From: a virus | DNA length: 20,183 nt | IMG/VR virus record: IMGVR_UViG_3300022931_000038 | Span: 1-20,183 of that record | Reading direction: 5' to 3' (one strand) | In this document: one piece after another, positions 1 through 20,183 of the stretch | How the letters are laid out: the number at the start of each line of letters is the position of its first letter | Position numbering within the stretch: position 1 is the first letter of the stretch | The notes under the pieces: generated by a model | Database searches by the model: none | Seen by the model: the letters and a program-made list of their open reading frames with translations, nothing else | Told to the model about the DNA's origin: nothing | Made by a program: the position numbers and the translations under genes

Positions 1-18
1 GCGGATTATTGGTGATAG

Positions 19-282
19 TTAAATAACTCTTACCTTTCCGTAACCTGTTCGCATGAGTTCGTCACGATAATGTACGTCGTTGAAGTTACGACCCATAAAA
101 TCATAGACGGCTTTTATTACGGTGCCTTTTGAATGCATCGCAGTATCCGAAGTTTCCATAGTGACAACTGTGACTATGAGTGAAGCGTCTGTAGTAAGGC
201 TCACGATTTGTGGCTCACTACCGCCGCCCGCCGCAAAGACATCATCTAAAACGTACTTCAGTGCTTTATGCTGGTTGTTCAT
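19..282 (-). CDS. Hypothetical 87-aa protein, last gene of the leftward arm in view
   Basis: I do not recognise the family. The protein is small and soluble-looking, with a Gly-rich turn near residue 20 (AAGGGSEP), a Thr/Val-rich beta-type middle and a basic C-terminus ending KVRVI. No signal peptide or membrane segment is seen. The start is well supported: a strong Shine-Dalgarno AGGAGGA lies just upstream of the ATG on the minus strand, immediately after the stop of the NADAR gene (8-nt gap), so the two are almost certainly co-transcribed and this is the downstream member. The tandem arrangement suggests a small early phage accessory protein, but no role can be read from the sequence. Confidence 0.75.
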   Translation of the reverse strand: MNNQHKALKYVLDDVFAAGGGSEPQIVSLTTDASLIVTVVTMETSDTAMHSKGTVIKAVYDFMGRNFNDVHYRDELMRTGYGKVRVI

Positions 283-290
283 AAATCCTC

Positions 291-707
291 CTACGGATTG
301 GTGATAGATAGGGCATCTGCAGTTAGTTTTGCTATACGCAGCAGTCGCGGGAATTCTTCCTTCCAGATACCTCGGTCCTGGGTATGGCTAAACTCTACGT
401 CGTGCGGGAGATCTTGAAGCGTTTCTCGGAACCAAGCATTCTGTGATAGTGAACGGAGTATCAGCCGTCCCATTAGCTTAATGTTCCAGTTGTCCACGGT
501 TCGCGCTCTACGGCCTACGAACTTACTTCCGTCTCTCCAAGGCTTAGAGTAAGTAACTTGGTCGAAGGAACCGCTCTTCCAAGATTGGTAAGCATGTTCT
601 ACGGACCGGTACAGGCGTCCATTTTCATCTTCGAACTCTCGGTGCGCGAGGTTGCTAAGCCAAGCGTTTTCATTAGTCCCATGCCATACATTTAACACGG
701 TGTTCAT
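291..707 (-). CDS. NADAR / YbiA-family (DUF1768) protein
   Basis: A single-domain 138-aa protein matching the NADAR family. Visible family motifs in order: LSNL at 17-20, SVEHAYQ at 35-41, FVGRRAR at 63-69, W74 with K77, LSQN at 87-90, and E105 followed by D111-RGIW to W115, the equivalent of the E...D..WG end motif. Length is slightly below typical YbiA (about 160 aa). Family members cleave N-glycosidic bonds of ADP-ribose or riboflavin-pathway intermediates, and some NADAR domains remove ADP-ribose from guanine as antitoxins to DarT1-type toxins. A standalone phage copy could therefore counter host ADP-ribosylation defence or change NAD metabolism; that is inference. The start has AAAGGA 8 nt upstream. 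A 23-bp dyad (728-750) and the composite element at 757-812 lie upstream and probably control it. Confidence 0.85.
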   Translation of the reverse strand: MNTVLNVWHGTNENAWLSNLAHREFEDENGRLYRSVEHAYQSWKSGSFDQVTYSKPWRDGSKFVGRRARTVDNWNIKLMGRLILRSLSQNAWFRETLQDLPHDVEFSHTQDRGIWKEEFPRLLRIAKLTADALSITNP

Positions 708-727
708 AATGCAAATCCTTTAATGAT

Positions 728-750
728 AGTGAAGGAATCATTCCCTCACT
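728..750. promoter_or_regulatory. 23-bp near-perfect dyad, operator candidate upstream of the NADAR gene
   Basis: The sequence reads AGTGA-A-GGAAT-C-ATTCC-C-TCACT. Both outer and inner half-sites are exact reverse complements, with one mismatched pair (733/745) and a single central base. A one-base centre makes a protein-binding dyad more likely than an RNA hairpin. It begins 21 bp upstream of the ATG at 707. A weaker dyad with the same outer half-site (AGTGA to TCAC, 2268-2281) lies 20 bp upstream of the start at 2248, so both leftward units may share a regulator. Confidence 0.45.
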
Positions 751-756
751 TATTAA

Positions 757-812
757 GTAACCCGACGCGCAACGAGGTACGAGTTGGGCTGTTTATGGGT
801 CGATATCCGTGG
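757..812 (-). promoter_or_regulatory. Composite upstream element, copy 1
   Basis: It contains a 20-bp box at 761-780 (CCCGACGCGCAACGAGGTAC) and a 12-bp box at 801-812 (CGATATCCGTGG). The same two boxes recur in the same order at 2298-2317 (18/20 identical) and 2365-2376 (12/12 identical) upstream of the other leftward unit. The distance from the 20-bp box to the start codon is similar (about 73 and 69 bp). Conservation in non-coding DNA at matched positions points to a promoter or regulator site for the leftward genes. No classical -35/-10 pair could be assigned. Confidence 0.5.
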
Positions 813-842
813 TTAGCGGTTACTAACATGGTACACATTGGC

Positions 843-880
843 CAAAGTTGGTACACATTAGGGGGTGTGTACCAACTTTG
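843..880. repeat. 15-bp perfect inverted repeat with 8-bp spacer
   Basis: CAAAGTTGGTACACA at 843-857 is the exact reverse complement of 866-880. The arms carry one array word each, extended by a conserved AAAGTT/AACTTT flank that also follows the copy at 930-943. The structure may be a paired binding site or a hairpin at an origin. Confidence 0.85.
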
Positions 881-882
881 AA

Positions 883-921
883 AATCGCTACAGACCAGTA
901 AGAACGTGGGCTGTAGCGATT
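883..921. repeat. 11-bp perfect inverted repeat with 17-bp spacer
   Basis: AATCGCTACAG at 883-893 pairs with CTGTAGCGATT at 911-921. Its sequence is unrelated to the GGTACACA word. It sits between the first dyad and the tandem pair at 921-937, so it is a second, distinct dyad within the array. Confidence 0.8.
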
Positions 922-1093
922 GTGTACCATGTGTACCAACTTTATATCAGTCAAATTCAATTTTGGACGATATTAGAATTAGTTAACATCCTATTTGGAG
1001 ATGCTAAAAAAGGTGGTACACATGGTACACATGGTACACAACGCTCTAAGTCTATGATAGTTAACGTAAAAGTGTGTACCAAGTTCAGTTTTG

Positions 1094-1125
1094 AAACTGG
1101 TACACAGACCAATGTGTACCAGTTT
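1094..1125. repeat. 13-bp perfect inverted repeat with 6-bp spacer
   Basis: AAACTGGTACACA at 1094-1106 pairs with TGTGTACCAGTTT at 1113-1125. The flank is AAACT rather than the AAAGTT of the dyad at 843-880. A third arm (1073-1085, TGTGTACCAAGTT) lies just upstream. Confidence 0.85.
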
Positions 1126-1170
1126 GCCCAGTGAGCACGGGTGTTGACCGTGGAGCGCGAATCGTGGTCA

Positions 1171-1326
1171 TTAGAGCCGCAATGTTTGATGTTCGTGGGC
1201 CTTGAACCGTGCTTCGCGCTCATCGAACCCCATGCGGAGGTAACGATGATAGAGAACCATGAACTCGGCGCGATGTTTCTCGGAGCCGATACGTGGTCGT
1301 CTGGTACGTGGTGTTGAATACCTCAT
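1171..1326 (-). CDS. Small basic 51-aa protein, translationally coupled
   Basis: The ATG at 1326-1324 overlaps the stop of the upstream gene as ATGA, with GGGAGG on the minus strand (1334-1339) 7 nt before it. The reading frame runs 51 codons to TAA at 1171-1173. The protein is very rich in Arg and His: the first 20 residues carry RTRRPR, followed by EKHRAEFMVLYHRYLRMGF and DEREARFKAHEHQ. No family is recognised. The strong ribosome site and exact stop-start coupling argue that it is real; its basic charge would suit nucleic-acid binding, which is inference. It is the last gene of the unit reading toward the iteron array, with its stop about 45 bp from the last repeat arm. Confidence 0.65.
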   Translation of the reverse strand: MRYSTPRTRRPRIGSEKHRAEFMVLYHRYLRMGFDEREARFKAHEHQTLRL

Positions 1327-1607
1327 GCGTCATCCTCCCAGTCTTTGTCGGAATCGTCTTCTACAGCTAGAAGCCGCAGCTTCCGATAAGGCAGCAACGA
1401 GTTCTCCTCCCAGCCTTTGTAGGGGGCGTCGAGCATATCTCCGACGTATCTACGCTCGGCCACGACAGCGTCCAAGGCAGCTTTGATCCACTCGACGTTC
1501 ATAGCACCTTGCTTGACGTACAGAGCTTCCAGCGCGTCGGCTTTGCGCGCCTTCGCGAGGTACAGAGCTTCCAGCGCGTCCCAATCGCCAGCAAGCGCAT
1601 CACACAT
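1323..1607 (-). CDS. Hypothetical 94-aa protein, shortened paralogue of the upstream gene
   Basis: The proposed start is the ATG at 1607 (MCDALAGDWDALEALY); the frame is open further upstream, but that region overlaps the preceding gene. From the start on, the protein aligns with the C-terminal half of the gene at 1631-2248: CDAL, WALEAL/WDALEAL, KxRKA, a KQG turn, a VEW/EEW motif, VVAER/VVEAER, and an acidic tail ending in DDSDKDWEDDA versus DDADSAW. It contains an internal near-repeat of DALEALY encoded by a 21-bp DNA repeat. Function is unknown; both proteins look alpha-helical and acidic at the C-terminus. The ribosome site is weak, but the start falls on the same CACTATCATG context used by the upstream paralogue. 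Confidence 0.65.
   Translation of the reverse strand: MCDALAGDWDALEALYLAKARKADALEALYVKQGAMNVEWIKAALDAVVAERRYVGDMLDAPYKGWEENSLLPYRKLRLLAVEDDSDKDWEDDA
1518..1580 (-). repeat. 21-bp direct repeat, 42-bp period, inside the paralogue gene
   Basis: GTACAGAGCTTCCAGCGCGTC occurs at 1518-1538 and again at 1560-1580. A 16-bp relative (1837-1852) lies in the upstream paralogue. The repeat encodes DALEALY on the minus strand and records internal duplication of a helix-forming segment. Confidence 0.8.
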
Positions 1608-1630
1608 GATAGTGAACTGGCCAAAGCAGC

Positions 1631-2248
1631 TCACGAGTTCGCCTCCCATGCACTGTCGGCATCGTCGTCTTGACAAGGCATCAACGAGATGGCGTAGTCG
1701 CGCTCGGCCTCGACAACGTCCAAGACACGTTGTATGCGGTCGCGCTCTTCGAACCATTCTTCGTTAACAACGCCTTGCTTGTCGAAGGCAGCGAGGGCGG
1801 CTTTATACTTAGAAGCTTTGCGTTCCTTTGTGGTGTGCAGAGCTTCCAGCGCCCAGTGATCGCCTTTGTTGTCAAGCGCATCACACTTGGCTTTGAACTG
1901 GTCAAGGATGCGGAAGCGCGGTGCGACTGGGTCTGCCCCCATCAGCGGCTTGCGCATAGCGAGGTGATAGTGATCAAGTGGAGATGATAGAGACGCGGCG
2001 CGCAGATCTGCGTCGGTCATGCCTTTCTCGTCGTCGGGTATGCCAGGTGTTATCGCGCGCTTCTCGACCTTGGTCCAGTTCTTCAGGTGGATCTTGCCAG
2101 CTGCCTTGATGTCAGCGATGAGGCTCGGCACCTTGGCGGGATCACAGTTCCCGTTGAGGCGGTACACGTTCTTGTTCGTGATGCGTGCATAGATGGTGGA
2201 TGGATCGGTCTTGCCAGCTGCTACTTCCTTTGGGATTGCAATGCTCAT
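1631..2248 (-). CDS. Hypothetical 205-aa protein, parent copy of the tandem pair
   Basis: I do not recognise the family. The start at MSIAIP (ATG 2248-2246) is preferred over the longer frame from 2290 because AGGAG lies 7 nt upstream. The N-terminal half (to about residue 100) has a compact basic region with a DPAKVPSLIADIKAAGKIH segment. The C-terminal half is a predicted helical stretch rich in Ala, Glu and Lys, duplicated in the next gene, followed by an acidic tail (CQDDDADSAWEANS). A 23-nt gap separates it from the downstream paralogue, which fits co-transcription. Upstream it has copy 2 of the composite element. It is likely an early or accessory phage gene; no catalytic motif is visible. 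Confidence 0.75.
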   Translation of the reverse strand: MSIAIPKEVAAGKTDPSTIYARITNKNVYRLNGNCDPAKVPSLIADIKAAGKIHLKNWTKVEKRAITPGIPDDEKGMTDADLRAASLSSPLDHYHLAMRKPLMGADPVAPRFRILDQFKAKCDALDNKGDHWALEALHTTKERKASKYKAALAAFDKQGVVNEEWFEERDRIQRVLDVVEAERDYAISLMPCQDDDADSAWEANS

Positions 2249-2293
2249 GATAGTGCTCCTGTATGCGAGTGAATCAGTCACCCGCTTCAAGAA

Positions 2294-2376
2294 TCACCCC
2301 GACGCGCGACGCGGTACGCGGAGTGCGTGCCTTTGACTTTGGTTTTCGGGACAAGGTTCCATGGCGATATCCGTGG
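2294..2376 (-). promoter_or_regulatory. Composite upstream element, copy 2
   Basis: The box at 2298-2317 (CCCGACGCGCGACGCGGTAC) and the exact 12-mer CGATATCCGTGG at 2365-2376 match copy 1 at 761-812, with 47 rather than 20 bp between the boxes. The element lies upstream of the leftward gene starting at 2248, in the divergent region between the two transcription arms. Confidence 0.5.
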
Positions 2377-2387
2377 ACAAGGTTCCA
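2349..2387. repeat. 13-bp direct repeat in the divergent control region
   Basis: GGACAAGGTTCCA occurs at 2349-2361 and 2375-2387, a 26-bp period, flanking the 12-mer of the composite element. A spacing of about 2.5 helical turns suits a bound dimer or a regulator site. The rest of 2388-2480 shows no structure I can name. Confidence 0.6.
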
Positions 2388-2485
2388 GATCCGCGATCCG
2401 GGGTTTGGGTCCGCTGTTAGGGCAGGGGGGGAGATAGTCGATGAGGGATATAGACCAGGAACTGAAATCTTTTTTATTTAAAAAT

Positions 2486-2515
2486 TTTTATAAAAAATAA
2501 TACAGTGCTAATATT
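2486..2515 (+). promoter_or_regulatory. Promoter P1, upstream of the HNH gene
   Basis: The -10 box is TAATAT at 2509-2514, with a poor -35 (TTTTAT, 2486-2491) at 17 bp. The shared ATAATAC box is at 2497-2503. A long A/T tract (2468-2500) could act as an UP element and compensate for the weak -35. The -10 ends 6 nt before the ATG at 2521. Confidence 0.6.
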
Positions 2516-2520
2516 CGCGG

Positions 2521-2979
2521 ATGAAAGGAACCAAAGAATGCACCTCGTGCCACAAAGTCCTGCCGCTAGCCGCTTTTGTCAAACCGAGCAACATATGTGC
2601 TGTTTGTAAGCAGCAGAATAAAGAAGCGCGGATCTCGAACACGTACCATAGTTACCTCAACAACCTATTCAACCAGAGCAGATCCACTAACAAAAAGACC
2701 CGGCAGTTGGAATGGCAGATCACGCTCGATGACCTCCTAGAAATGTGGGAGAAGCAGGGTGGGCGGTGCGCGATTAGCGGAGTATTCCTAACGCACCATA
2801 AAGACGGGTCTGGGACAAAGGAGTGGAACGTAAGCATTGACCGTATCGTTAATACGCGCGGGTACATCCCCCAAAATACCCAGCTTGTTTGTCATCGAGT
2901 GAACCTCATGAAGCACACATTATCTGAAGATATGTTCTATTGGTGGGTCAAGACAATCAACGATTTCACTTGCGATTAG
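2521..2979 (+). CDS. HNH endonuclease with N-terminal zinc finger
   Basis: A 152-aa protein. A four-cysteine knuckle comes first (C7, C10, C26, C29), then a linker and the HNH-type core: GRCAISG at 81-87, SIDRI at 105-109 with D107, GYIPQN at 114-119, LVCHRVNLMKH at 122-132 with C124, H125 and N128, and a final helix SEDMFYWW. This layout is typical of small phage HNH enzymes next to terminase genes, where some are needed for terminase cleavage of packaged DNA and others act as homing nucleases. Position immediately before the terminase genes favours the packaging role. There is no Shine-Dalgarno site; the ATG sits 6 nt after a -10 box, so a leaderless message is predicted. Confidence 0.85.
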   Translation: MKGTKECTSCHKVLPLAAFVKPSNICAVCKQQNKEARISNTYHSYLNNLFNQSRSTNKKTRQLEWQITLDDLLEMWEKQGGRCAISGVFLTHHKDGSGTKEWNVSIDRIVNTRGYIPQNTQLVCHRVNLMKHTLSEDMFYWWVKTINDFTCD

Positions 2980-2999
2980 ATAATACCCACGCTAATATT
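2970..2999 (+). promoter_or_regulatory. Promoter P2, upstream of the gene at 3005
   Basis: TTGCGA (2970-2975), 17 bp, then TAATAT (2993-2998), with the ATAATAC box at 2980-2986. The -35 overlaps the last codons of the HNH gene. It aligns with P3 at 10653-10682 over the whole element. Confidence 0.7.
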
Positions 3000-3004
3000 A
3001 ATCC

Positions 3005-3277
3005 TTGGCAGAAGATATCCAACTTTTAGCCGTGGGCGGCTTAGACGGGGCACTCATTGGGTCAGCTATGGCTAATGGTGAGGAAGTGCTTGTTTATGAC
3101 TATGACAAATGCGTTGAAATTATCATTGGCGCGGGTTGCGACGTTGGTTACGCAGAAAACTATGTTTTTGAGTTATCTAAGGCGACTACTAAAGGCATCC
3201 CCATTTTTGTGCATTTTAATAACAGTCTAGAATATTATGGAGAACCTCCCAGCGTCGGAGCAAACATCGTTCACTGA
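3005..3277 (+). CDS. Conserved phage hypothetical protein, 90 aa (YDYDKCVEI motif)
   Basis: A small soluble protein with the recurring phage pattern LDGALIG...VYDYDKCVEIIIGAGCD...AENYVFEL...GIPIFV. I recall similar proteins near many phage packaging genes, but their function is not known to me. The start is probably TTG at 3005: an in-frame stop lies only 3 nt upstream, and the next ATG (3069) would remove the conserved N-terminal LDGALIG segment. No Shine-Dalgarno site is present, and the TTG lies exactly 6 nt after the P2 -10 box. The 3' end overlaps the terminase small subunit gene by 41 nt, so translation of the two is probably coupled. Confidence 0.65.
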   Translation: MAEDIQLLAVGGLDGALIGSAMANGEEVLVYDYDKCVEIIIGAGCDVGYAENYVFELSKATTKGIPIFVHFNNSLEYYGEPPSVGANIVH

Positions 3278-3755
3278 TCCTGTCAGCGAACACACAGAAT
3301 TTCAGTCGCATATGCCCTACATGGGCTTATCACGCGGCGAACTTACGATGCAGCAAGAAAAACTCGTCTCGCTCATTGCTTCGGGAATGACAGTCGCGGC
3401 TGCGGGCCGTGGAGCGGGGTACGCGAGTCCCTCAACCGCTTATCAAGCGGCAAAAGTCGAGGCGGTTCAGAAAGCGATTGAATATTTCCGTCAGGAGATG
3501 CGTGAAGAGGTGAAGTACACCAATAAGCACGCACACATGATGTATATGGAAGCGTACAACTCCAGCGCTAACGCGACCGAAATGAAGAACACCACCGATT
3601 CTCTGGTCAAGCTGCACGGTTTGGCGACAGCGGAAAGCGTTCCGCAGGTAAACATCAACATTAACGGCACCAAGCAGCTTGAACGGATGACCGACGAAGA
3701 CCTGTTGAAGATCGCGGGTAAAGACATCGACTACTTAGAACCTAAAGGAGATTAG
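3237..3755 (+). CDS. terS: Terminase small subunit
   Basis: The DNA-recognition subunit of the packaging motor, which binds the phage DNA and loads the large subunit. Residues about 38-72 form a helix-turn-helix of the terminase type (MQQEKLVSLIASGMTVAAAG then GYASPSTAYQAA). Residues 94-129 hold the oligomerisation helices, with the family pattern of YTNKHAHMMYMEAY, a region where EM precedes a helix, and VKLHGLA. The last 40 residues (INGTKQLERM to the end) are an acidic tail likely to contact TerL. The length of 172 aa is normal. Its position after HNH and ahead of TerL supports the call, although six genes separate it from TerL, which is unusual. The start is uncertain because no clear ribosome site precedes it; coupling with the overlapping upstream gene is likely. 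Confidence 0.85.
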   Translation: MENLPASEQTSFTDPVSEHTEFQSHMPYMGLSRGELTMQQEKLVSLIASGMTVAAAGRGAGYASPSTAYQAAKVEAVQKAIEYFRQEMREEVKYTNKHAHMMYMEAYNSSANATEMKNTTDSLVKLHGLATAESVPQVNININGTKQLERMTDEDLLKIAGKDIDYLEPKGD

Positions 3756-3868: not shown

Positions 3869-4062
3869 TGAAAACACTAAGCGCGACGTTAGCGGTCTTT
3901 TTGGTGCTGGTGGGCTGTGGTTCAATGCCCGCGAACCCCAAAACCATTGCAGCGGGTGCTCCGGGTCAAATCGACTACTGTGTCACTGCGCTAGGCACGA
4001 ACCTTTTTTGTATTAATGCCACGAGGAAGATGGCAACTGTAGAAGCGCCTGATGCCGAGTAG
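3868..4062 (+). CDS. Small lipoprotein, 64 aa
   Basis: The N-terminus is a classical bacterial lipoprotein signal: a positive start (MK), a hydrophobic core ATLAVFLVLV, and a lipobox LVGC with Cys17 as the predicted lipid-modified residue. The mature part is about 48 aa with two further Cys (YCVTALGTNLFC), possibly a disulphide in the periplasm. The start overlaps the previous stop (TAATG) and the end overlaps the lipase start by 11 nt. It is probably anchored in the host outer or inner membrane. An outer-membrane spanin or a superinfection factor are both possible; the sequence does not decide. Confidence 0.7.
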   Translation: MKTLSATLAVFLVLVGCGSMPANPKTIAAGAPGQIDYCVTALGTNLFCINATRKMATVEAPDAE

Positions 4063-4654
4063 CCATCTCGACTGTGCGTTGCTATCAGCGCGTGTCTATA
4101 AAGAGTGGCATGCCGAGTCGGCGGGCATAGAAGTTCTTTTTAGCGAGGACAAGAAGACGGTTGCTTTTGCGGGCACCAACATCAGACAGCCGAGGGACGT
4201 GTTTCGCGATATGCGAATTTTCCCGCTATGGAGTCCCAGTTTGGGACTCTGCCCCGCTGGTTTCTTAAAGGCGAGCCGTAGATTGGGCTACGTGGTACTC
4301 GATCACCTAGCAGATAACGACCTAGCGTCGGTAACGTTGACAGGCCATTCGTTAGGTGGGGCTTGCGCCTTGATAACGGCTGCACTAATCCAACGGGAAA
4401 CGGGTGATGGCGAGAAAATTGACCAGATCGTGACGTTTGGTGCGCCGAGAGTGGGTAGATTGAAGGTATTGACCCGCCCAATCAGCCAGTATCGCTTCCA
4501 GAACGACTTTGCGACAAGCCTCCCGCCTTTTATGGGGAGTCCAAGCGAGTTGTTGCCACTTGGGAAGCGTAATACCAAGGGTAATTGGGTCAATGATCAC
4601 TCAATGATCAACTACGTCAAAGCACTGAGGGGCGATAATGCTCTACACGTATAA
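4052..4654 (+). CDS. Class 3 lipase family enzyme
   Basis: An alpha/beta hydrolase of the Lipase_3 family, 200 aa. The nucleophile elbow TGHSLGGA (97-104) places Ser100; the region IVTFGAPRVG (126-135) is the strand-turn after it; NDFATSLPP (151-159) carries the catalytic Asp152, the match of the fungal D.VP.LP motif; NDHSMINYV (181-189) carries His183. An early strand with TVAFAGT (36-42) holds the usual oxyanion-region residues. No signal peptide is present, so the enzyme acts in the cytoplasm until lysis, or is exported by another route, or rides in the virion. Likely substrates are acyl lipids or lysolipids. Neighbours are small lipoproteins and other hydrolases, suggesting a degradation or lysis cassette. 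The ribosome site is weak; coupling to the preceding gene is likely. Confidence 0.85.
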   Translation: MPSSHLDCALLSARVYKEWHAESAGIEVLFSEDKKTVAFAGTNIRQPRDVFRDMRIFPLWSPSLGLCPAGFLKASRRLGYVVLDHLADNDLASVTLTGHSLGGACALITAALIQRETGDGEKIDQIVTFGAPRVGRLKVLTRPISQYRFQNDFATSLPPFMGSPSELLPLGKRNTKGNWVNDHSMINYVKALRGDNALHV

Positions 4655-4979
4655 GGTGGCAAAGGTCCACTCCGTTTATGACGGCGATACATGCACCGTG
4701 GATATTGACCTTGGCTTAAATACAATTCGCTACAAAGAGAGGGTCAGATTGTACGGTATTGATACGCCAGAACTGCGGGGCGTGGACCCCGAAACGAAAG
4801 TAAAGGGCCTTGAAGCGCGAGACTGGCTCCGCGATCAGCTAGATGGGGCGGATGAGGTGCTGGTTCGCACGCACAAAGACAAAACCGGTAAATATGGGCG
4901 GCTGTTGGGCGAACTTTTTGCAGATGGTGTGAATTTGAACGAGACGCTTGTTGAGCTGGGTATGGCGGTGGAGATGTGA
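4638..4979 (+). CDS. Staphylococcal nuclease-like (thermonuclease) protein
   Basis: A compact SNase domain of 113 aa. Key signature segments are VYDGDTCTV (13-21) with D15 and D17, VRLYGIDTPE (36-45) with R37, D42 and E45, and TGKYGRLLGELF (83-94) with R88, matching the calcium ligands and the catalytic Arg/Glu/Arg set of micrococcal nuclease. The family cleaves DNA and RNA with calcium. No signal peptide is seen, so it would act inside the cell, perhaps on host nucleic acid, unless carried in the virion. The start has GAGGGG upstream and lies inside the last 17 nt of the lipase gene. It is shorter than secreted nucleases (about 150 aa), consistent with a minimal domain. Confidence 0.88.
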   Translation: MLYTYKVAKVHSVYDGDTCTVDIDLGLNTIRYKERVRLYGIDTPELRGVDPETKVKGLEARDWLRDQLDGADEVLVRTHKDKTGKYGRLLGELFADGVNLNETLVELGMAVEM

Positions 4980-5104
4980 GGGTGCTTTTCACACTGCTGA
5001 TGTTGTGTGGCTGCGAGACTGTGCCAACGCCGTTTGAGACTGGGCCAGAGGTTGCCCCGCCGCTAGGCTGCATTGAGGGTAGGGAGCGCGGCGTTGACTG
5101 TTGA
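4976..5104 (+). CDS. 42-aa Pro-rich prolipoprotein, o-spanin candidate
   Basis: A tiny gene with GTG start overlapping the nuclease stop (GTGA). The product begins MRVLFTLLMLCGCETVP: a positively charged start, a hydrophobic run and a lipobox-like LCGC with Cys13 (or Cys11) as candidate lipidation site. The mature part is only about 30 aa and Pro-rich (TPFETGPEVAPP). Small Pro-rich lipoproteins of this kind, like lambda Rz1, act as outer-membrane spanins; however, no inner-membrane spanin partner is seen beside it, so the role is uncertain. The end overlaps the next gene by 11 nt. Confidence 0.55.
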   Translation: MRVLFTLLMLCGCETVPTPFETGPEVAPPLGCIEGRERGVDC

Positions 5105-5486
5105 CAAGGCTGACCTTCAGGCGATCAGTGACTATGTGCAATGGCGATTTAATTACACATCTGATATTGAGCAACGAGGTGTCCCTGAGCACTGGGTTTC
5201 CTCAGGCGAACTTGAATCACTGGATGAGGCCCAGAAAGGCACATTCAAAGACGACTGCGACGGCTTCGCGCTGGCCTGTAGGCATCAGTGCCACAAGGTG
5301 TCGATTCCTAATCGACTGGTCTTTTGTCAAACAGAGACGGGCGGATACCATCTCGTTTTAGAAGTCGAGGGATGGATTCTGGACAACCGCAGAAAATGGG
5401 TTATTGCTAGGCACCAAGCAGGCTACAAATGGGTCAAAATCAGTGGGTATGAGCGGGGTGACCCGTGGCACGAGGTTCATTCGTGA
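5094..5486 (+). CDS. Transglutaminase-like cysteine peptidase family protein
   Basis: A 130-aa protein from the TTG at 5094, chosen because AGGGAG (5081-5086) lies 7 nt upstream; a TTG at 5073 would add 7 residues. The catalytic pattern of the bacterial transglutaminase-like cysteine protease fold is clear: DDCDGFALAC with Cys55, GGYHLVLEV with His86, and ILDNR with Asp97, in the right order and spacing. Such small phage enzymes occur near structural and lysis genes. They may cleave or cross-link proteins or act on peptide cross-bridges; the substrate is not known. No signal peptide is present. The 3' end overlaps TerL by GTGA. Confidence 0.75.
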   Translation: MTVDKADLQAISDYVQWRFNYTSDIEQRGVPEHWVSSGELESLDEAQKGTFKDDCDGFALACRHQCHKVSIPNRLVFCQTETGGYHLVLEVEGWILDNRRKWVIARHQAGYKWVKISGYERGDPWHEVHS

Positions 5487-7132
5487 CTTCTATTGAAGCC
5501 GCCAAGATCGAGTGCATCAGGTGTAAGAACCTGCATCCTGAAACGTTGTACGCGGGCCTGGATCACGTATGCGTCTACTGCAAAGCCGATATTGCGGAGC
5601 AAGCACCGCTTCCTGCCAGCGCTCAACCAGAAGAGCCAAGACAGGACACGGTTGAAGAGAAGGCGCGGGCTGAATTAGCGATGCGGTTCTTGACGCGGAA
5701 GCGGCTGTTGCCGTTTGTTGAGCGGTTTAACCCTGACTACCAAGCGGGCTGGGTACACAAAGATATTTGTCAAAGACTAGAGGAGTTCTCCAGAGATGTT
5801 GCTGAAAAAAAGAGTCCAAGACTTATGCTCTTCATGCCGCCCCGACACGGTAAAAGTACACTTGCGTCAGTGGCATTCCCAGCTTGGCATCTGGGTAGAA
5901 ACCCAAACCATGAGTTCATCTCGTGCAGCTATTCGGGTTCGCTTGCGATGGCTTTCAGTCGAAAAGTCCGTGGCCTTTTACGTGAAGACGGCTACAAGTC
6001 AGCCTTCAAAACTCGTCTCGACCCTCAGAGCCAGAGCGCAGAAGCTTGGCTTACAACAACGGGCGGCGGCTATGTGGCAGCAGGTGTCGGTGGTGGTATT
6101 ACAGGTAAAGGCGCACATGTACTCGTTATTGACGACCCGGTAAAGAACCGGGATGACGCTGAGTCTTCAAACGCACGCGAAAGCACATGGGATTGGTACA
6201 CCTCGACGGCTTATACGCGGCTTGCCCCCGGTGGCGGCGTTCTTGTCATTCTTACTCGCTGGCACGATGACGACCTTGCAGGACGGCTTCTTAAAGCAGC
6301 CGCTGATAACGGAGAGCAGTGGGAGGTTGTTAACTACCCCGCACGAGCCGAAGTCGATGAAGAGTTCAGAAAAGCCGGTGAGGCGCTCCATGCTGAGCGA
6401 TACGATGAGTCGGCTCTAGCCAGAATTGAAAAAGCCGTTGGCCCACGCGATTGGTCGGCGCTGTATCAGCAGAACCCTGTCGCAGATGATGGTGATTACT
6501 TCACCCGCGACATGATTAATTACTACGACCGTGACGACATTGACCATGACCGCATGAAGTTCTATTGCGCGTGGGACTTAGCAATTGGTAAAAACGACCG
6601 CAATGACTATACGGTAGGTATTGTTGTTGGCGTTGACGAGCAGGATCAGCTGTACGTGGTTGACATGGTGCGCGGGCGGTTTGATGGTTTTGAAATTGTA
6701 GAGCGGATACTGGATCTTTATGAAATATGGAAGCCCAACATAATTGGTATTGAGAAAGGCCACATCGAGATGGCCCTTGGGCCATTCCTAGAGAAGCGGG
6801 TCCGTGAGCGCGGGTTGTACGAGGCGTACTTCAAAGATCTTAAAACTGGCCGTAGAGATAAAGAGGCGCGTGCTAGAGCAATTCAGGGTCGGATGCAGCA
6901 GGGCATGGTGTTCCTGCCAAAAGAAGAACATTTTACTGGCCCCTTGGTTGCAGAGCTGCTGCGGTTTCCAAACGGCGTGCATGACGACCAGGTAGACGCA
7001 TTGAGCTGGATTGGCTTGATGATGACTGAGTTTTCGACGTTTGTTGAAAGAATTGAACATATTCCCAGTTGGCGAGACAGATTACCGGCACTACTAAAAA
7101 GTGACCGGTCCAAATCAGCAATGAGCGCATGA
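5483..7132 (+). CDS. terL: Terminase large subunit (ATPase and nuclease)
   Basis: The motor and nuclease of DNA packaging, 549 aa from the GTG at 5483, which overlaps the previous stop as GTGA with AGG 7 nt upstream (a GTG at 5465 is the alternative). Residues 11-33 hold a zinc-ribbon-like CxxC...CxxC (C11, C14, C30, C33). The ATPase follows: Walker A PPRHGKST at 119-126, Walker B VLVIDDP at 213-219, and the coupling motif LTRWHDDD at 257-264. ALYQQNP at 327-333 is the usual linker. The RNase H-type nuclease has D365 in CAWDLA, E424 in GIEKG, and D501/D502 in HDDQVDALSW. The length is normal. It lies directly ahead of the portal gene, its partner at the vertex. Confidence 0.95.
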   Translation: MTSIEAAKIECIRCKNLHPETLYAGLDHVCVYCKADIAEQAPLPASAQPEEPRQDTVEEKARAELAMRFLTRKRLLPFVERFNPDYQAGWVHKDICQRLEEFSRDVAEKKSPRLMLFMPPRHGKSTLASVAFPAWHLGRNPNHEFISCSYSGSLAMAFSRKVRGLLREDGYKSAFKTRLDPQSQSAEAWLTTTGGGYVAAGVGGGITGKGAHVLVIDDPVKNRDDAESSNARESTWDWYTSTAYTRLAPGGGVLVILTRWHDDDLAGRLLKAAADNGEQWEVVNYPARAEVDEEFRKAGEALHAERYDESALARIEKAVGPRDWSALYQQNPVADDGDYFTRDMINYYDRDDIDHDRMKFYCAWDLAIGKNDRNDYTVGIVVGVDEQDQLYVVDMVRGRFDGFEIVERILDLYEIWKPNIIGIEKGHIEMALGPFLEKRVRERGLYEAYFKDLKTGRRDKEARARAIQGRMQQGMVFLPKEEHFTGPLVAELLRFPNGVHDDQVDALSWIGLMMTEFSTFVERIEHIPSWRDRLPALLKSDRSKSAMSA

Positions 7133-10894: not shown

Positions 10895-12049
10895 ATGGCT
10901 TTAACGAACTTCGGCACCTTGACGGGTGACCAACTCCAAGCTTGGAGCAGGGACTTCTGGAAGGTAGCCCGCAACCAATCGTTCATTAACCAATTTGCTG
11001 GAACCGGCTCAAACGCTATGGTTCAGCGGGTTACTGAGCTAACTAAAAACCAAAAAGGCACCAAGGCAAACATCACGTTGCTTGCCGATATGACCGGAGA
11101 CGGTATCACTGGTGATTACACGCTGGAAGGCAATGAAGAAGCCTTGCGCGCGTATGACATCACCATCGAGCTAGATCAGCTGAGATTCGCAAACCGAATC
11201 GCTGGCCGTATGGCCGATCAGAAGACAGTAGTTAATTTTCGCGAGCAGTCTCGTGACGCACTTGCTTACGCAATGGCTGACCGTTGTGACCAGCTTGCGT
11301 TCTTGACTCTGGCGGGTGTTGCTTACACATTCAAAAACAACGGCGCACTGCGTACTGTTGTTGGCGGTGCAGTAAACGGTCAAGAACTCGTTGACCTTGC
11401 CTACGCCTCCGATGTGTCTGCTCCTACAGCTGATCGTCATCGTCGGTGGGACGCAACGTCCGGGCTTGTTGCTGGAGCCACTAACGCAATGGTTGCTGCT
11501 GACAAGATCAGCTACGAGACTATCGTTAACCTGAAAGCATACGCGAAAGATAACTACATTCGTGGTATTCGCGGTGCTGGTAACCAGGAAACGTACCACT
11601 TGTTTGTTACTCCCCAGCAAATGGCTGATCTGAAGCTTGATACAAGCTTCCTGGCTAACGTTCGTAACGCGGGTGTACGGGGTGCTGCAAACAGCTTGTT
11701 TAGTGGTTCTTCCAGCCTAATGGTTGACGGCATAATGATCCACGAGTTTCGCCATGTGTTCAACACTTCTGGCGCTACAGCGGGAACTTCCGCTAACGTC
11801 GGCGCAGCCGGTTACAAATGGGGTGCTGCTGCAGACGTAGATGGAGCGCGTGCTCTGTTCTGTGGTGCGCAGGCTCTGGCTCTGGCTGACATTGGACTGC
11901 CTGATATGGTCGAAGATACTTTCGATTATGGTAACCAGTCTGGTATATCCGTCGGTAAGATCTTCGGTATGCGAAAGCCTAAGTACAACTCTGATATCTC
12001 AGGGTCTGTACAGGATTTCGGTGTTATCTGTCTCGATACCGCGCAGTAA
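10895..12049 (+). CDS. Major capsid protein, N4-gp56 / DUF4043 type
   Basis: A 384-aa capsid protein starting at MALTNFGTL, with GGAGG 8 nt upstream. Recognised segments include the N-terminal arm and WSRDFWKVAR, the stretch LRFANRIAGRMADQKTVVNF with REQSRDAL, and ETYHLFVTPQQMADLKLD near residue 231, which is the classic surface-loop/P-domain pattern of this family. The fold is HK97-like and forms the icosahedral shell. Its position after scaffold and before the adaptors agrees. A strong terminator lies immediately downstream, so this mRNA may be made at high level separately from the genes after it. The longer upstream frame from 10859 is leader and not coding. Confidence 0.85.
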   Translation: MALTNFGTLTGDQLQAWSRDFWKVARNQSFINQFAGTGSNAMVQRVTELTKNQKGTKANITLLADMTGDGITGDYTLEGNEEALRAYDITIELDQLRFANRIAGRMADQKTVVNFREQSRDALAYAMADRCDQLAFLTLAGVAYTFKNNGALRTVVGGAVNGQELVDLAYASDVSAPTADRHRRWDATSGLVAGATNAMVAADKISYETIVNLKAYAKDNYIRGIRGAGNQETYHLFVTPQQMADLKLDTSFLANVRNAGVRGAANSLFSGSSSLMVDGIMIHEFRHVFNTSGATAGTSANVGAAGYKWGAAADVDGARALFCGAQALALADIGLPDMVEDTFDYGNQSGISVGKIFGMRKPKYNSDISGSVQDFGVICLDTAQ

Positions 12050-17858: not shown

Positions 17859-20183
17859 GTGAATTATTCAGCCCTTCAAAAGGCCATGCTCCAACGGGAG
17901 TCGTCTGGTGATTACAGCGCTGTTAACAGACTTGGTTATGCGGGAGGTTACCAGTTCGGTGCTGCAGCATTAGAAGACTTAGGGTATTTAAAACCAAGAA
18001 GTTCAAAGCTGGGTAATAAAGCAGCGATGAATGACCCCGCCAACTGGACGGGAAAAAACGGCGCTGACAATTTAGATGCGTTTTTAAAAAATACGACTTT
18101 ACAAGATAAAGTGTTCCAAGAGAATTTGGATGCTAATCTCGTCCACTTAAAAAGAAGAGGCACAGTTAACTCAAATACACCCCCCGAAGATACTTTCGGG
18201 TTTTTAGCAGCGGCTCACCTTTTGGGGGCAACGGGCGCTAGTGATTTAAACAAAACTGACGCTAATGGGGTGTCAGGTAATGATTATTTTAAGCTTGGTA
18301 GTTCTGTATATGCCTCGGCTCAGTCACAACCACAACCGCAATCACAACCGCAACCTGAACGAAGAGCCGGTGCGCCGGGAACTCCTGGTTTAGTAGGTGC
18401 GTATCCCACTAGAGTAAAAGGTGCGCCTACTTATAATCCAGCTGGTAGTGCGGAAGATCTTGTGGCGTCTATGTCTCAAGAAGACGCTACTTACGATACG
18501 GCAGGTGTAACACCAGATCCTATACAAGATCTATATGCGCGGGCAGACGTAGCACCTACAGCAGTCAGGTCTAAACCGCAGCCAGCGGCACTACCTCAAG
18601 AAGAAAGAATCCGTGTCGATCCTACCGATGTTAAGGCAGCTGGCCCCAACCCTAACCCTAACCCTAACCCTAACCCTAACCCCGTACAAAGTTTATACAG
18701 GCGCACAGCAACTCGTCGGCCTGTTGACCCCAGTTCAATATTCCAGCGTCCAGATGATACTGCGGTTACCCCCGGTAGCCTTGGGGAAACTTTTGAGCGC
18801 GGCTTAGACGCGGGTCTTGCAGGGATTCGTACTGATACCGATTACTTCAAAGGAATTGTAAATACGCTCGTAGGCGACGATGAAGCTGCAGCAATTAACA
18901 TCCAAACTGCACGGGATCGCGAGGGAAGAATCGCGGAGTCGATGTCAGGTCTTGAGAACTTCGAAGAGTTTATAGATAACCCTACACTAGGTGGTTTAGC
19001 CAATCAGATTTTCAAGACCTCTGGTCAGTTAGCGCCTTATGCACTGACTACGATTGGTACAGGTGGTGCAACAGCAGCCGTAGGGATGATTGGCAAAGGA
19101 GCACTAACCGTTGCTAGCCGTCAAGTAGCAAAAAAAGTCATAAGAGACTCTATAGAACGCAGCATAAAAAAAGAGGCGACTCGAAGCGAACAAGACTTAG
19201 CAGAGCTTGCTTATCGTTTAGCCCGCCGCACTACTCTTGGCAAAACAGCACGCGCAATAACACCAACACGAGCGGCTGTTGCTGGTCAGTTGGGCGAAGA
19301 GTTTACCCTGCAGGCAGGCGCTAACTTCGGAGAGAACTTAGATGTAGAGGGGTTGTCTCCTCAACAGGCCGCGTTGCGTGCATTGACAGTGGCAGCACCC
19401 CAAGCCGCGCTTGGTGTTACTGGTGAACGCATTATTCAGAACGCCATTTTTGATGGCTTGGGGAGGGTAGCTAAAGAGCGAGCCGTCGGGGGTTCTGGTT
19501 CTCTGTTGTGGGGGCTAGGGAAAGAAATCGCCAAAGCAACAGGACGAGGCACAGTTGGCGAATCCATAACAGAAGGTATACAGGAAGGTTTGCAAGTTGC
19601 TAGCGTCATGGAAGCAGACCCAACTTATGCCAAAGAAGACGCCCTTATGCGCTTGGGCGAGTCCTTTTTCGCGGGTGCTATCGGCGGTGGAGCAATGGCT
19701 GGAGCGGGTCGAACCGCGACAGGTGCATTAGAACTTTCTGGTGGCGTTATTGGAAAAGCTGGCGAGTTTATAGAGCGTGCTCGCGAGCAACAGGTAGGTT
19801 CTCAGTTTGAACAGCAGCAGTATGGTGTAACCGGCGATGGCACCACGGCCCAAGAACCCAAGGCCCATACGAACGCACAGATAAGGTCGCTGTTAGATCC
19901 AGGCACAGAGCGTAATAGTCTGTGGGTAGCTGGTAACAAGCCAGAGTATGACGCATCTCCTGATAGCGTTAAGCAGGTAGAAATTGAAGGCGAGACGTTT
20001 TACACACGGTTTATTCCTGGTCGCGGGACTATTCTTTCAAGACATCACGATGTAGTAGAGGCTGTTGCTAACGCCGAAGCAAGCAACGAGTCTTTGCAGA
20101 TAGCGCTCGGGTATAGCAACGTCAGAACCGCAGATGCAGATGTTGTTGTCGAGGCGCGAGACGCTGAAGGTAATGTTGTGTGG
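17859..20183 (+). CDS. Very large lysozyme-headed internal virion protein, gp16-like, cut by the window edge
   Basis: An open frame of 775 codons from GTG at 17859 to the last base, with no stop, so the gene continues beyond the window. Residues 6-45 carry a lytic transglycosylase/lysozyme core: LQRESSGDYSAVN, with Glu14 as candidate catalytic acid, and GYAGGYQFGAAALEDLGYL; the region TFGFLAAAHLLGATGASDL and DANGVSGNDYFKLG completes it. A long Pro/Gln/Asn low-complexity linker follows, with QPQ runs and (NP)6. From about residue 385 come Gly/Ala-rich hydrophobic stretches (APYALTTIGTGGATAAVGMI; FFAGAIGGGAMAGAG) that may cross a membrane. Such proteins digest the wall and form the ejection conduit. 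ATG at 17886 is an alternative start. Confidence 0.75.
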   Translation, partial: MNYSALQKAMLQRESSGDYSAVNRLGYAGGYQFGAAALEDLGYLKPRSSKLGNKAAMNDPANWTGKNGADNLDAFLKNTTLQDKVFQENLDANLVHLKRRGTVNSNTPPEDTFGFLAAAHLLGATGASDLNKTDANGVSGNDYFKLGSSVYASAQSQPQPQSQPQPERRAGAPGTPGLVGAYPTRVKGAPTYNPAGSAEDLVASMSQEDATYDTAGVTPDPIQDLYARADVAPTAVRSKPQPAALPQEERIRVDPTDVKAAGPNPNPNPNPNPNPVQSLYRRTATRRPVDPSSIFQRPDDTAVTPGSLGETFERGLDAGLAGIRTDTDYFKGIVNTLVGDDEAAAINIQTARDREGRIAESMSGLENFEEFIDNPTLGGLANQIFKTSGQLAPYALTTIGTGGATAAVGMIGKGALTVASRQVAKKVIRDSIERSIKKEATRSEQDLAELAYRLARRTTLGKTARAITPTRAAVAGQLGEEFTLQAGANFGENLDVEGLSPQQAALRALTVAAPQAALGVTGERIIQNAIFDGLGRVAKERAVGGSGSLLWGLGKEIAKATGRGTVGESITEGIQEGLQVASVMEADPTYAKEDALMRLGESFFAGAIGGGAMAGAGRTATGALELSGGVIGKAGEFIERAREQQVGSQFEQQQYGVTGDGTTAQEPKAHTNAQIRSLLDPGTERNSLWVAGNKPEYDASPDSVKQVEIEGETFYTRFIPGRGTILSRHHDVVEAVANAEASNESLQIALGYSNVRTADADVVVEARDAEGNVVW
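18644..18683 (-). repeat. Telomere-like (CCCTAA)n repeat encoding Asn-Pro
   Basis: Seven C-runs of 3-4 separated by TAA/AA, a 6-bp unit repeated about five times exactly. On the minus strand it reads GGGTTA repeats with seven G-runs, enough for a G-quadruplex. The plus strand encodes the NPNPNP linker in the lysozyme-headed protein. The resemblance to a telomere repeat is coincidental in sequence terms; slippage expansion of an NP-coding unit is the simpler reading. Confidence 0.9.

Follow-up and report, generated by a model that had tools for sequence, protein, structure and literature searches.

The systems closest to the locus described here are the origin of phage P4, PICI/SaPI rep-ori, the NrS-1 primase-polymerase and the V. 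cholerae PLE. The P4 record annotates a type 1 origin repeat, reading GGTGAACA, at both ori and crr, and the origin-binding domain of the P4 alpha protein is a winged helix (Yeo et al. 2002, as given in PMC4234260). In the rep-ori regions of PICI/SaPI elements two iteron sets flank an AT-rich region, the initiator is a helicase/primase, and the origins lie directly 3′ to rep, an organization that the authors call unique to PICIs (PMC6092414, PMC7145576). The polymerase of Nitratiruptor phage NrS-1 requires an 8-nt priming site that is said to be present twice near the genome centre (PMC7102993) and is given as TTTGGTTA in PMC8718748. In the V. cholerae PLE, attack by an origin-directed nuclease is the presumed driver of origin restructuring and of the swapping of replication modules (PMC8263062).

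Here we describe an array of 8-bp words, GGTACACA, at positions 830–1120 of a viral sequence of 20,183 bases (hereafter the window, which spans the complete virus record; no longer assembly underlies it), and propose from sequence comparison that it is very probably a phage replication origin. As in P4, words of 8 bp occur in both orientations and a primase/helicase protein is encoded, here by relatives of the window, and the word of the array is identical to the P4 repeat at six of eight positions, both being TGT-anchored. It does not consist of the P4 type 1 repeat, however, and the P4 words are split over two cis sites, whereas the window derives from a large phage whose relatives carry the array far from the initiator gene. 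The two iteron sets (830–937 and 1015–1120) on either side of an AT-rich core are arranged as in P4 and the PICIs, although the window's family differs from the latter in comprising full-size phages with the array 6–14 kb from the initiator gene. NrS-1 resembles the window's relatives in its DUF5906-type helicase region and has the closest C-terminal fold, but has a different word and an array adjacent to the gene. The PLE RepA/ori system is similar in its origin and iteron diversification, there under nuclease attack, but uses an unrelated protein, a RepA_N initiator, and iterons of ∼30 bp. The kind of origin is a known one. In the literature that we found there is no account of such an origin in this setting, of so large a distance to the initiator gene, or of such turnover of the word.

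Organization of the iteron array

Exact matches to GGTACACA number 12 in the window compared to 0.43 expected, a count reached in 0 of 100 shuffles, and in 40 Markov shuffles no two-strand 8-mer ever exceeded three copies per 400 bp. Eleven of the matches lie at 830–1120, in agreement with the initial annotation, which had reported eleven words in both orientations within about 290 bp. General abundance of the word, which that annotation had named as counting against an origin, was not seen: the single copy outside the array, at 5752, is coding sequence within the TerL gene. The array is composed of two inward-facing word sets flanking an AT-rich core, with the orientations + + − − − [core] + + + − + −. 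The inner words are TGTGTACC-a-TGTGTACC on the left (921–928 and 930–937, both on the minus strand, TGTGTACC being GGTACACA read on the opposite strand) and GGTACACA-t-GGTACACA-t-GGTACACA on the right (1015–1022, 1024–1031 and 1033–1040, plus strand), the latter being the tandem trio of 9-bp period noted earlier. Six outer words flank these, at 830–837 (+), 850–857 (+) and 866–873 (−) to the left and at 1073–1080 (−), 1099–1106 (+) and 1113–1120 (−) to the right. The inner left pair is conserved, and two further blocks on the plus strand recur among aligned relatives: GGGCTGTAGCGAT (908–920), which precedes the inner left pair and reads GGG(C/T)TGTAG in most of 14 relatives, and TAAGTCTATGATA (1047–1059), which follows the inner right set and reads TAAGT..TTGATA in most of them.

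The AT-rich segment between the words, previously put at 70 bp and about 26% GC, is 77 bp in length (938–1014) with a GC content of 27.3%, compared to 49.6% for the window as a whole. It falls within the most AT-rich 0.25% of all 77-bp intervals and is a candidate DNA unwinding element. The lowest-GC stretch of the window is at 2430–2510 (minimum at about 2463), upstream of the endonuclease VII gene and outside the array. A DnaA-dependent or iteron-plasmid origin does not fit, with DnaA boxes at chance level (one match to TTWTNCACA window-wide, at 19998, and none beside the iterons), and no Rfam families were found in positions 1–3000. The expectation that GC skew switches at the array was borne out in two relatives, in which the cumulative minimum lies close to it (21.9 kb and an array at 22.0–22.3 kb in G002; 16.7 kb and an array at 17.0–17.3 kb in G004), and failed in KPP25, G003 and G006, where the minimum and the array do not coincide; because skew is confounded with gene direction, it is weakly informative.

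Genes flanking the array

The array lies within a leftward gene arm, as had been proposed, with flanking genes at 19–282, 291–707, 1323–1757 and 1631–2290 all oriented leftwards. The earlier statement that it contains no credible gene also holds, in that the overlapping ORFs at 865–1134 (plus strand) and 957–1223 (minus strand) consist of repeat sequence and look non-genic. To the right are an HNH/endonuclease VII-like gene (2521–2979), the terminase small subunit gene (TerS, 3237–3755), lipase-like, SNase and transglutaminase-like genes, the terminase large subunit gene (TerL, 5465–7132), and those for portal and capsid. The endonuclease VII-like and TerS genes, both identified by PHROG matches, and TerL are on the plus strand and served as synteny anchors, the first lying beside the array in 24 loci and TerS being found in 25. 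We note that the region separating the two terminase subunits (4052–5486) is occupied by the lipase-like, SNase and bacterial transglutaminase-like genes.

The major capsid protein has 53% identity to its counterparts in Pseudomonas phages KPP25 and phiR18, and close relatives of the window phage are present in hundreds of environmental contigs. Among 50,697 phage records there was no near DNA match to the structural genes, and a nucleotide search with the array found nothing useful. No integrase gene was identified in the 20,183-base window, and the family looks lytic. The initiator gene is absent from the window's own 20-kb record.

Arrays of the same word in other contigs

Forty viral contigs contain a match to a 17-mer taken from the array, and almost all of them have 4–12 word copies in 400 bp with the layout seen in the window: an inner pair, an AT core, an inverted inner pair, and outer words. 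About 25 of the 40 belong to the window's family and have the array in the same place beside the endonuclease VII, TerS and TerL genes, so that the GGTACACA clusters sought at the equivalent position of related phages are indeed present; further relatives carry a different word there. A DUF5906 protein is encoded by five relatives with the same array (G002, G003, G004, G006 and G010), and also by relatives with other words. It is present in 5/10, 7/10 and 11/16 of the records probed, which are partly fragmentary, with most of the 16-record set chosen for having the gene. In relatives of the window the array is ∼6–14 kb from the DUF5906 gene, and thus not immediately 3′ of it.

That adjacency is seen in Acinetobacter prophages and others. 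The Acinetobacter prophages with the array have no gene family in common with the window by clustering, and their array is ∼20 bp from the gene for a 915-residue protein with a primase zinc ribbon, a Toprim domain and a DUF5906 helicase domain, the domain composition of the P4 alpha protein. In these and other unrelated phages the array is no more than ∼100 bp from a P4-alpha-type primase-helicase gene (DUF5906, with a winged-helix C-terminus), and in L198 and L171 it adjoins the end of the DUF5906 gene. A same-word array in L197, a Ruminococcus MAG, is located at 3035–3221 directly after a Bro-N/Toprim/AAA_25 gene, so DUF5906 initiators are not the only ones with which the word occurs. In L162 and L182 arrays are present and the DUF5906 search gave no match. 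Chromosomal matches in two Bacteroidales MAGs (L191 and L196) looked unrelated to phage replication. Among the matches listed by a full-text literature search for the word there were only unrelated ones.

The association was also approached from the protein, using phages picked by tblastn with a DUF5906-type protein and disregarding repeats. In Moraxella Mcat9, Pseudomonas PG1 and KT1, Nitratiruptor NrS-1 and Halomonas H4907 the densest two-orientation 8-mer array is at the 3′ end of the DUF5906-type gene, with its own word in each phage. All but one of the DUF5906 phages examined have an array of their own, usually at this location, the exception being Aeromonas phage phiA008, in which the initiator is present and an array was sought and not found. 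In NrS-1 (L241), for which we found no published iteron-array origin, the array has 11 copies of GTTACACT at 11013–11340, after the primase-polymerase gene, and contains TAACCAAA, the complement of the priming site. KPP25, a relative of the window, lacks a GGTACACA array; its arrays, at ∼26.4 and ∼58.3 kb, follow the same design with TGTTACGA as the word, and its DUF5906 gene occupies 38.8–41.2 kb. These two same-word arrays (NC_024123, 26394–26825 and 58257–58542) are ∼32 kb apart on a 64-kb map and are reminiscent of P4's ori and crr.

The DUF5906 initiator and its winged helix

NrS-1 is the only PDB sequence match to the DUF5906-type helicase region (E = 5e-29). An AlphaFold2 model of the DUF5906 C-terminus is a winged helix whose closest fold is the NrS-1 CTR, residues 617–718 (Z = 6.5, rmsd 3.3, 96 residues). 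Residues 761–800 are the least conserved across 50 family members, and the variable stretch maps to the wing and the part that follows. A comparison of five initiators, each going with a different word, shows differences of 1.5–4.4% in the helicase domains, 5–16% in the middle, and 23–46% in the C-terminal winged helix. Equal words go with greater winged-helix similarity than the helicase similarity accounts for when near-duplicates are included (p = 0.01), and not significantly when they are removed (p = 0.14), so that co-diversification of word and winged helix is only suggestive. Many proteins of G011, G012 and G013 are variable in a proteome comparison, and variability of the winged helix alone is therefore no proof.

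We consider it probable that the array is bound by the phage's own DUF5906 protein, a prediction drawn from these comparisons. A different division of labour, in which a separate phage initiator binds the origin and the DUF5906 protein is only the primase-helicase, would accommodate both the 6–14 kb between gene and array in the window's family and a covariation that is only suggestive. It is nonetheless unlikely, given the P4 alpha precedent and the many unrelated phages in which an array adjoins the DUF5906 gene.

Turnover of the word among close relatives

Relatives whose TerL is 86–95% identical to that of the window have an equally dense array upstream of TerL with another word. These alternatives include TGTAGCAG, GTGTGCCA, GTGTGACG, TTGTGCCA, TGTGTAGC, TGTGTAAT, TCGTGCCA, TGTGTCAG, GTGTGACA, TGTGTACG and TTGGTCCA, with ∼20 in total, and most have a TGT or TGTGT anchor followed by about three variable bases; TTGTGCCA is the word of G012 and TGTGTAGC that of G013. 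The spacers can be aligned between arrays and are 67–84% identical, and nearly every copy of the word has changed together, a pattern suggesting that the start site changes in step with its cognate protein. Defining an array as at least five two-strand copies, one was called in 19 of the 25 loci that have at least 3 kb before TerL. Of the remaining six, L144 and L145 carry arrays of two words, the array of L096 is degraded or mixed, the L082 contig breaks off within its array, and the contigs of L001 and L015 may just stop before reaching one.

Hybrid arrays, in which the word differs between left and right arms, are found in L362 (G027; 1683–1970), L144 (3590–3910) and L145 (4515–4830), with the left/right pairs TGTGTCAG/TGTGTGCAG and GTGTGCCA/TGTGTGTCA. 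They may have arisen by recombination or represent transition states, and that of G027 may instead be an assembly chimera.

L123 and L125 are 97–100% identical over most of TerS and TerL and yet have different words, with a sharp recombination boundary at ∼2.1 kb: the structural arm is 97–100% identical, whereas the early arm to the left, which contains the origin, is ∼50% identical. Because DNA identity collapses left of this boundary, the word travels with the early arm.

The same pair bears on other functions for the array. Operators of an early transcription regulator would also be clustered, in both orientations, in the early arm, and would also travel with it. The initial annotation had offered a cluster of sites for a master regulator as one reading, and this has become less likely because each genome has a single such cluster rather than sites at several promoters. 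Promoter-like matches are moreover at chance level, and arrays of this design accompany replication genes in unrelated phages, leaving an operator cluster decidedly improbable. A pac- or cos-type packaging site, recognized by the small terminase encoded ∼2 kb away, draws on the location of terminase genes within a few kb of the array in most of these phages; it is very improbable, as the word does not track TerS. L123 and L125 differ by 1.8% in TerS and 0.7% in TerL while their words differ, TerS differs by up to 54% among same-word phages, and the P4 record has annotated origin repeats and no annotated terminase gene. Integrase arm-type (attP) sites or a partition site are the least credible of these. 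Short repeats to either side of a core do look like attP arms in outline, but the attP reading was dropped because in an Acinetobacter chromosome contig the prophage replication gene lies next to an array that retains both its arms, and integration would have separated the two halves of an attP core. The window is from a lytic-looking family and has no identified integrase gene.

Proposed origin function

The reading of the array as an initiator-bound origin, which the initial annotation had favoured and which comparison with other phages supports, is based on what the sequences show: an array of this layout at a conserved position, DUF5906 genes associated with it in phages unrelated to the window, and a word that changes from one relative to another. 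From these we infer protein binding, melting and origin activity at the array. The initiator would be the phage's own DUF5906 primase-helicase, with an SF3-type helicase and a C-terminal winged helix, encoded beyond the end of the fragment. Its winged-helix domain would bind the TGT-anchored words on both arms, helicase rings would assemble on the inner pairs, and the AT core would melt, with DNA synthesis primed either by the fused N-terminal part of the protein or by another phage enzyme.

In the window's family the proposed origin scaffold is an AT core with mostly TGT-anchored words to either side, and a change of word affects nearly all of the ∼11 copies. We tentatively suggest, as a reading about which we are somewhat more doubtful than confident, that this reflects an origin-specificity polymorphism with a fixed scaffold, at least ∼20 alternative words, and a winged helix that diversifies alongside. 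If so, coexisting phages or parasitic satellites would be unable to use each other's initiators. Nuclease attack, as in the V. cholerae satellites, is a possible kind of pressure on the family.

The arrays provide candidate origins for uncultured marine phages that form a widespread group, and would extend to full-size phages a layout described as exclusive to PICI satellites. They also form a natural collection in which origins of differing specificity are paired with their initiators, and a two-armed 8-mer array near a DUF5906 gene is a rule that should locate origins in many unannotated phages. Finally, they raise the question of how a multi-site origin can swap its recognition word without losing function, and whether competition or parasitism may be the driver.
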